Translations under genes and position numbers: made by a program | Shown here: positions 101-2,859 of the stretch, piece after piece | Layout of the letters: each line of letters starts with the position of its first letter | Position numbering within the stretch: the stretch's first letter is position 1 | Assembly: GCA_947629175.1 (NCBI GenBank) | Contig: CANRCT010000007.1 | Span: 1 to 64,000, forward strand | Reading direction: 5' to 3' | Length of the DNA stretch: 64,000 nucleotides | From: an uncultured Muribaculaceae bacterium | GTDB taxonomy: Bacteria; Bacteroidota; Bacteroidia; Bacteroidales; Muribaculaceae | Notes under the pieces: model-generated | What the model saw: only the letters and a program-made list of their open reading frames with translations | Told to the model about the DNA's origin: nothing | Database searches by the model: none

Positions 101-364
101 ATGAAAAAAAATCTTTTAATGCCTTTGGTCGCCGCTGTGCTGTTTGTCGGCATTGGGATGGCTTGCCTTCTTCCAGGCAACGGAGAATCCATATCTTCAG
201 CATGCTTGGAGAATTTGGAAGCTCTCGCCGAAGACGAATCAGGTGAAGTCGTGAAGTGTTTCTGTCGTTCAGATGTGGACGACGCAATTTGTTCCGTAAT
301 GGGTGACAAACGTTTTTACTGTGGTGGAAATCCATGTTCATCACATTCCTCGAACTGTCTCTGA
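101..364 (+). CDS. NVEALA-family-like small Cys-rich exported peptide
   Basis: 87-aa ORF, N-terminal hydrophobic leader (MKKNLLMPLVAAVLFVGIGMA), LENLEALAEDESGE motif resembling NVEALA, Cys-rich C-terminus, directly upstream of a propeller lipoprotein. Confidence 0.75.
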   Translation: MKKNLLMPLVAAVLFVGIGMACLLPGNGESISSACLENLEALAEDESGEVVKCFCRSDVDDAICSVMGDKRFYCGGNPCSSHSSNCL

Positions 365-374
365 AAATAGTCTG

Positions 375-1532
375 ATGAAGAATATTTCGATTATTCTTAT
401 CCTATCTATCATGATACTGACCGGAGCTTGCGAAAAAGCTTCGGTCAGTAGTCATAGTCATGTCGGCGAAAAGTCCATTATGATTACGGAAATACAGTAT
501 GATAGCATTAAAATACCAGCTGATTCAACAAGCATAAGAGGCAATTTTGTGCTAATGGATACTATGCTTTTATTTGTTGATAGACTGTATTGCAAGATTT
601 TTCCTTTCTCGATTTATGATGGGAAGCCGAGTAGACCTGTAGGAGGTATGGGACAAGGGCCTGGTGAGATGGTGGGAGTAATATGCGGATCTGCTATTTC
701 ACCTGCCGATACGTTGATGTGGATACTTGACGCCTCAAACGGCGTATATGAATATTCACTTCGATCGGGAAGCATAGTTTTTCTTACACAACTGGATTTT
801 TCGTGGGATAAGGCAGACCGTAACAATTACGAGTCGACGTCAGTCTACAACACAATGCAGATGACTAGCTTCGGCGTGACGGTAGCTGATATGGGTAACG
901 GCAAAGTTTTGTATCCACTATCTCTTGTTGATCAGTTTCTTGACGAGATGAATGTCGAACGTTATAAAAAAGGTCATATCCTTGGTGTAGTCGATAAAAA
1001 CACATTGAAAGTGGAGAAAGTTATAGGATCAATGGCCTCGTACTATCAGGATACTCCTATCCCATTATTTGAGTTTTTCGACTATGCAGTGAACTATAGT
1101 GATTCCATTCTCTATGTCAGTCATGCGCCTGATTCGCTCATTTATTGTTATAAATATCCTGACTCATTGCTCTACGTAATAGGATTTGAACCCGAAGGGT
1201 TGCATCGTGATTTTACAGTTGGTTATGATTTGGGTAATAGAATATTAAGGAAAGAAATATTGCATACGAGTGTTAATACCGGGCTTTATTATGATGCGAC
1301 TGACAAGCTGTTGTTCCGTACCTCTATCACTGATTATGTCACGGGTAATGTAGTCGTTCAGATCTATTCTGACAATAATCTTATAGGTGAAGTCAATGCT
1401 CCTCCATTCTTCCATTTGCTTGGTCGGATAGATGACCGATATTATGCCGTTAGATCTAGACCAGTAGAGACGGATGACGAAGAGGTGTATTTTATTCTTT
1501 ATAGTTTCAGCCGATTGCGATTGGATAACTGA
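375..1532 (+). CDS. 6-bladed beta-propeller lipoprotein (BF3164/DUF4934-like)
   Basis: ORF 303-1532; internal ATG at 375 gives lipoprotein signal MKNISIILILSIMILTGAC; GGMGQGPGEM and propeller-like repeats; 10 nt after the NVEALA-like stop. Confidence 0.75.
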   Translation: MKNISIILILSIMILTGACEKASVSSHSHVGEKSIMITEIQYDSIKIPADSTSIRGNFVLMDTMLLFVDRLYCKIFPFSIYDGKPSRPVGGMGQGPGEMVGVICGSAISPADTLMWILDASNGVYEYSLRSGSIVFLTQLDFSWDKADRNNYESTSVYNTMQMTSFGVTVADMGNGKVLYPLSLVDQFLDEMNVERYKKGHILGVVDKNTLKVEKVIGSMASYYQDTPIPLFEFFDYAVNYSDSILYVSHAPDSLIYCYKYPDSLLYVIGFEPEGLHRDFTVGYDLGNRILRKEILHTSVNTGLYYDATDKLLFRTSITDYVTGNVVVQIYSDNNLIGEVNAPPFFHLLGRIDDRYYAVRSRPVETDDEEVYFILYSFSRLRLDN

Positions 1533-1658
1533 AATGTACTCGCTAAAAATGAGCCTTCTTCCGGATACGGCTGCGGATATGCTGCGTACGAATGGGATAA
1601 CGATTTTTGGGAAGACACCAAGAATTTCTCAAAATGTATACGGGGATGTCCGGAATAG
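1533..1658 (+). pseudogene. Possible NVEALA-like peptide remnant (C-terminal part)
   Basis: In frame with the upstream propeller and directly after its TGA (1530-1532): NVLAKNEPSSGYGCGYAAYEWDNDFWEDTKNFSKCIRGCPE*; starts with an NVEALA-like motif, lacks start codon and leader. Confidence 0.5.
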
Positions 1659-1744: not shown

Positions 1745-1778
1745 GCGCTGTGCCAAATATTGAATTTTGACACAGCGC
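1745..1778. terminator. Inverted repeat / possible terminator
   Basis: gcgctgtg...cacagcgc arms with inner caaa/tttg pairing. Confidence 0.5.
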
Positions 1779-1794
1779 TATTTACAAAAAAAAC

Positions 1795-2859
1795 ATGTTA
1801 TATAATATGAGGAGAATTTCTTTTGCCGCGGCAGCTTTGGCCGCATTGATGATGTCGTGTTCGGGAGGCTGCAGGGAGGTCGTCGACGAAGCCGCAATAC
1901 CTGTCGACAGGGCCGAACTGACCGCTGTGGCACTTGATGACAGCACGATGTTTCCGACAGATCTCGTGCTTATGTCAGATTCAATCCTTGCGGTTCATGA
2001 GCGCAAGAATCAGACCGGGTTCATGACGATATACAACACCAACACTCAGCAGCCGGTGGCTGCCTTGGGCGTAATCGGAGAGGGACCCGATGACTTCGTC
2101 AACCCGAGATTATTGCATTGCCTGAATACCGAAAAGGAATTCTATATAGGCGATGCGAAAAAGATCGTACGTTTTTCAGCCGACTCGTTGTCCGCCGAAG
2201 GTTATAGCGGGAATAAAATCATGTCATTGCCGTCAGATGCAATGTTTTATAATTACATTCTGATCAATAATGATTCACAGTTGGTGTACAGCCAGACCGG
2301 CGAACACCCGATATCACGGTTCAACAAATCGACCCGGGAGCTGACCTTTACAGACTATTGGCCCGATGTCGACTGGGCAGAAGGGTCGGACTTTATAAGG
2401 GATATGGAGGTGTTCGCCAACTGCATGACGTCGGCAGGCAACGAAATCGCCATCGCGTATCACAACTGGAATGTGATCTCCATCATTGACAGCGACGGTG
2501 GCAGGCGTGCCGAAATTTATCTTCCCGAGTGGGATTACAATAGCGGGCGCATGCATATTGATACCTCTGCCGGCAATCTTGTTTTCGACAATGACGCCAG
2601 GATCTTTTTCACGAAGATAAAGTCTGACGCCGGTCATATTTATGCGTTGGACTGGGCGGCGACAAAGGAGCAGATCAGAAACGGCGAGGCCGGTTCATCC
2701 ATATACGTGTTGGACTGGGATGGCAACATCATCAGGAAAATAGTCTTCGGAAGGAGCGTGTCAAACTTCTGCATTAAGGACGGCACGATCCCTTATGTGA
2801 CAGCCATAGGCGACGATGGCGAAGTGCACGTGTTCGGCTGCAGGCTGACGGCGGAGTGA
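1795..2859 (+). CDS. 6-bladed beta-propeller (BF3164-like/TolB-like) lipoprotein
   Basis: 354-aa ORF with lipobox-like LMMSCSGGC and VAALGVIGEGPDDFVNPRL signature; start may be 1807. Confidence 0.75.
   Translation: MLYNMRRISFAAAALAALMMSCSGGCREVVDEAAIPVDRAELTAVALDDSTMFPTDLVLMSDSILAVHERKNQTGFMTIYNTNTQQPVAALGVIGEGPDDFVNPRLLHCLNTEKEFYIGDAKKIVRFSADSLSAEGYSGNKIMSLPSDAMFYNYILINNDSQLVYSQTGEHPISRFNKSTRELTFTDYWPDVDWAEGSDFIRDMEVFANCMTSAGNEIAIAYHNWNVISIIDSDGGRRAEIYLPEWDYNSGRMHIDTSAGNLVFDNDARIFFTKIKSDAGHIYALDWAATKEQIRNGEAGSSIYVLDWDGNIIRKIVFGRSVSNFCIKDGTIPYVTAIGDDGEVHVFGCRLTAE

Follow-up and report, generated by a model that had tools for sequence, protein, structure and literature searches.

A leaderless 41-codon stretch between two propeller lipoprotein genes of a Muribaculaceae bacterium: a candidate remnant of an NVEALA-type peptide gene

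NVEALA-type peptides and the arrangement of the locus

The closest described system is the NVEALA family (PF14055), whose mature part extends for ~40 aa past the NVEALA motif, is rich in Cys, Tyr, Trp and Gly, begins with LAxxE and is encoded between propeller genes. In the literature searched, no paper mentions NVEALA, and the Pfam accessions led only to unrelated papers on malaria and on enzymes. The genome studied here, that of an uncultured Muribaculaceae bacterium, holds about 18 NVEALA genes, most of which precede propeller lipoproteins; some form tandem propeller–NVEALA–propeller arrays. Within this genome's NVEALA loci, an NVEALA gene is directly upstream in 17 of 21 propeller-type ORFs examined (one overlaps its propeller), a frequency that is biased upward because the loci were picked for containing NVEALA genes. 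All five other propellers of the TolB_like type that we checked have an NVEALA gene upstream.

The window, by which we mean the whole stretch of 64,000 nt that was analysed, contains the following features near its left end.

101..364, plus strand: intact NVEALA-type peptide gene, 87 aa, the upstream partner of the first propeller (PF14055, E = 2.5e-4, 21.2 bits, cut-off 27)
375..1532, plus strand: first 6-bladed beta-propeller lipoprotein, 385 aa, with its stop codon TGA at 1530-1532 (PF17170, DUF5128, 21.7 bits, just below the cut-off)
1533..1658, plus strand: open stretch of 41 codons without a start codon, followed by TAG; candidate leaderless remnant of the mature part of an NVEALA-type peptide (codon usage, composition, no homologs)
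1745..1778, no strand assigned: strong inverted repeat with 13-bp arms and an 8-nt loop, member of a terminator-like family (z = -4.2)
1795..2859, plus strand: second propeller lipoprotein, 354 aa, TolB_like (PF15869, E = 9e-14, 51.9 bits), with no intact NVEALA partner upstream

The 41-codon stretch is thus located between two propeller genes, directly adjoining that of a 6-bladed propeller lipoprotein, and at the site where the NVEALA partner of the second propeller would be expected. The gap between its end and the second propeller is 136 nt, which is inside the range observed between NVEALA genes and propellers in general (up to 309 nt). The 41-mer shares the length, composition, LAxxE start and position given above for the mature part of NVEALA peptides. 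Unlike members of the NVEALA family, it has no start codon, no leader, no profile match and no homologous mature part, and its motif is degenerate (NV..LA). We lean towards reading 1533-1658 as what is left, untranslated, of the 3′ end of an NVEALA-type gene, namely its mature part without the leader, and its former partner was probably the TolB_like propeller at 1795-2859. For that propeller, the true start may be the ATG at 1807, and no ortholog was found in 34 genomes of the genus.

The hairpin at 1745-1778, GCGCTGTGCCAAA...TTTGACACAGCGC, is one of many copies of a palindromic, terminator-like element dispersed in the genus, and one congener alone has nearly 40 matches. As for the intact peptide at 101-364, its mature part has orthologs in the congeners G028 and G013, and several genomes have conserved the pattern CYC...YCGGDPCxxHDxNC along with the propeller, which is not the case for most NVEALA mature parts.

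L097:8.2-8.4k, L122:770-1027, L123:9351-9611, L114:1142-1402 and L116:1045-1329: sites of the conserved CYC...YCGGDPCxxHDxNC mature part

Coding signal and composition of the 41-codon frame

Downstream of the TGA and in the same frame, positions 1533-1655 read NVLAKNEPSSGYGCGYAAYEWDNDFWEDTKNFSKCIRGCPE, and the TAG at 1656-1658 ends the frame. Neither ATG, GTG nor TTG is present in frame within 1533-1655, and the 5′ flank is propeller coding sequence, so independent translation of the stretch is not possible. This agrees with the original prediction, which described a peptide string reached by reading through the TGA and lacking both leader and start codon. Searches of the region for tRNAs and Rfam families gave no match.

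The main alternative to a gene remnant is a frame that is open by chance, located in the 3′ untranslated region that separates the propeller from the hairpin and rich in Cys and aromatic residues by accident; it is a possibility to be taken seriously even though we doubt it. Openness as such is unremarkable, since 41 codons are open in 25% of the intergenic frames in the loci examined. When scored by a codon model built from 22 low-GC genes of this genome's NVEALA loci, the frame had a log-odds score of 4.5, which is close to the mean of real coding pieces (5.0, sd 3.1) and was attained by 2.9% of open intergenic pieces and 5% of off-frame open pieces; it was also the best codon score among the six frames. 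The composition log-odds of NVEALA mature parts against ordinary proteins was 8.2, a value attained by none of 546 ordinary 41-residue coding pieces and by none of 6,312 overlapping intergenic pieces. True NVEALA mature parts average 6.4 on this score and the 41-mer falls at their 81st percentile, and with 3 Cys in 41 residues it resembles the Cys-rich mature parts of ~35–60 aa. The composition supports the description of the string as NVEALA-like. Composition and coding-like codon usage agree and occur in the same frame, which argues against chance, as does the position of the stretch, where a partner gene is missing and would be expected.

These numbers were computed post hoc, after the string had already been chosen in the original prediction, and they weaken when a freer choice is allowed. 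If the best window per segment is taken, ~0.4% of 6,414 open segments match the score of 8.2, mostly Cys/Arg-rich off-frame ones. For the joint codon-plus-composition score, 24 of 4,290 segments were at or above the 41-mer under the genome null, and 13 of these are true NVEALA sequences; most of the others are real proteins, again arguing against a chance frame. Under a low-GC null 85 of 4,290 segments reached the 41-mer, 19 of them NVEALA, leaving about 65 non-NVEALA segments which, with the absence of homologs, speak for chance. Taken together, the statistics are suggestive: the string is unlikely, but not impossible, as a chance product.

Relation to NVEALA peptides and to gene debris

Homology of the string to NVEALA peptides, as had been proposed, was not borne out. 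Searches of its own genome and of 34 genomes of the genus, 397 of the family and 393 of the order, about 790 in all, returned only the 41-mer itself, and all weak matches proved on inspection to be off-frame or stop-ridden, i.e. due to chance. Nothing matched in plasmids, phages, viral contigs and PDB, nor in Pfam, NCBIfam and PHROGs, and PF14055 gave no match at E ≤ 10; the intact peptide at 101-364 is itself below the cut-off of that profile. A string without NVEALA homologs is, formally, the outcome that had been named beforehand as refuting the proposal. However, among 44 intact NVEALA peptides that we collected, 16 have a mature part without any relative in that set at E < 1e-3, and because intact mature parts are so often orphans, the orphan status of the 41-mer does not refute an NVEALA origin. 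With profile match, leader and homology all absent, NVEALA membership of the 41-mer is not established.

The nearest resemblance is to the EW...KCxxxCP subgroup of NVEALA peptides (C38:11.6k in its own genome and C6:9.3k in G013), with which the 41-mer shares LAxxE[PS] near the start, C..(A/C)xEW and a C-terminal KCxxxCP. It differs from this subgroup by an identity of 22–33% and by the missing central Gly/Cys segment. In a two-sequence profile of the subgroup it was the top non-member match, but at E = 0.15 only, and a three-sequence profile run over the 397 family genomes recovered its own members and chance matches, with no bridging sequence. The best alignment of the 41-mer with an NVEALA tail was no better than those of shuffled sequences (p about 0.12).

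The reading of its start as NV-(EA)-LA is weak. Of the motif [NSDG][IVL]EA[LV]A plus xxE, the 41-mer has NV/LA and xxE alone, and on a position-specific matrix it scored 3.4 in the gapped register and 8.0 ungapped, whereas true motifs score 23–49. The part that stands is the LAxxE-like start, as LAKNEP fits the sequence that follows the motif, where E is present in 34 of 38 peptides.

The stretch might instead be what is left of a different deleted gene, for example one for a small Cys-rich or accessory protein of these operons, which we regard as unlikely. The congener G028 offers a precedent. It carries two propellers that are 64% and 63% identical to the first propeller of the window, each followed directly 3′ by a large accessory gene in truncated form, and the missing NVEALA profile match would likewise suit such an origin. 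This debris lies immediately behind the same propeller as the 41-codon stretch, but it comes from a different, large gene and has kept its 5′ end and start codon, whereas in the window the 3′ end alone is present. Moreover, no accessory gene in the loci examined resembles the 41-mer by blastp, and NVEALA mature composition fits it far better than ordinary composition, since only 1 of 67 C-terminal pieces attained its score. The G028 debris was located at L123:7781-8044 (minus strand) and at about 2300-2500 of L122; the 87-aa fragment corresponds to the N-terminal end of a protein of 661 aa in L106.

The propeller stop codon and the origin of the stretch

The peptide had been described as decayed in frame, with its tail joined to the propeller, and here the orthologs say otherwise. 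Both G028 propellers end at the same residue as the first propeller: their ends FILYSFDKLSISK and FILYSFDKLPLNN, each followed by a stop (YSFDKLSISK-stop and YSFDKLPLNN-stop), align residue by residue with FILYSFSRLRLDN and the stop in the window (YSFSRLRLDN-stop). Because both terminate at this residue, the TGA at 1530-1532 is, on these alignments, the ancestral stop of the propeller and not a decay mutation; hence the shared frame of stretch and propeller is a coincidence with a chance of 1 in 3. Other propeller ends were FYSFSLDPKP-stop in a paralog of the same genome and YSFRLK-stop in a partial homolog, the only one obtained when genome contigs were scanned with the propeller. In G028 and G013 the region is absent downstream of the orthologous propellers and no such string is present, and a DNA search of 1490-1800 across the genus gave a strong match for the hairpin only.

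The same alignments bear on two further explanations. In one, the end of the propeller would have fused in frame with an NVEALA gene at a point upstream of the motif, and the TGA would have broken the fusion later. This was hinted at by the position-specific matrix, since SRLRLDN can be read as S-D-L-x-L-A/E-N and the ungapped 8.0-bit match is SRLRLDN-stop-NVLAKNE, 25th of 348,754 windows with 18 true motifs among those ahead of it. That score relies on C-terminal residues of the propeller, and in G028 these residues and the stop are native to the propeller, so that we rejected the fusion as very improbable. Functional readthrough of the stop, by which the propeller would gain a Cys-rich extension at its C-terminus, is scarcely credible, and so is translational coupling into the region: the stretch is open and in the propeller's frame and the TGA overlaps an ATG, but neither the orthologs at 63–64% identity nor those further removed carry an extension, the extension is not conserved, UGA with A after it is not known as a leaky stop context, and the ORF of 60 codons that begins at this ATG (1534-1716; TGAAATG, 1530-1536) has non-coding codon usage (score -1.4). 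Both readthrough and the overlapping ORF were therefore rejected, and the earlier judgement that readthrough is the less likely course is in line with the ends of the orthologs.

For a leaderless remnant of an NVEALA-type gene, we envisage that an exchange or deletion cut the gene at or near its motif, by which the start codon and leader would have been lost and the mature part left immediately 3′ of the ancestral stop of the upstream propeller. The remnant would now belong to the untranslated 3′ end of the first operon, ahead of the hairpin, and would not be translated. Counting against such a remnant are the missing trace of a leader, the degenerate motif, the lack of a PF14055 match and of any homolog in the sequences searched, and the hairpin that separates the tail from the second propeller, an unusual feature in a partner pair. 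The general idea of a leaderless NVEALA-type tail made by module swapping or deletion is consistent with composition, frame and location, while homology and fusion to the propeller have fallen away.

That modules are swapped at loci of this type, as had been supposed, is in keeping with three NVEALA genes elsewhere in the genome (G000 C7:85.8k, C32:0.1k and C32:1.7k; L061 and L064). Their leader DNA is 94–98% identical and their mature DNA is 56–61% identical, i.e. at background level (median 54%, 90th percentile 61%); the genes cease to be alike at the NVEALA motif, and the propellers next to them are different. This pattern is plausibly that expected from module exchange or conversion at the motif, whereas strong selection on the leader would seem to explain the near-identity of the DNA less well. 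A leaderless leftover is plausible because these genes break at the motif and because gene debris has a precedent in G028. A bolder reading, which we put forward tentatively, is that NVEALA loci consist of exchangeable leader and mature cassettes recombining at the motif DNA, with the tail at 1533-1658 as a by-product, a mature cassette left leaderless.

If so, one conserved export leader could be joined to many mature peptides. Should this be general, NVEALA peptides would diversify by swapping of mature modules behind a shared leader, which would account for the frequent orphan mature parts and hint at strain-specific secreted peptides. The tail itself is probably a gene scar of little weight and has its value as a pointer to the shared-leader genes; shared leaders with swapped mature parts merit more attention than the remnant. 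As a minor observation, NVEALA loci in this draft assembly gather at the ends of contigs (both ends of C7, the ends of C13, C1 and C17, and the start of C32, with a further case in C78), as if repeated leaders or propellers had broken the assembly.
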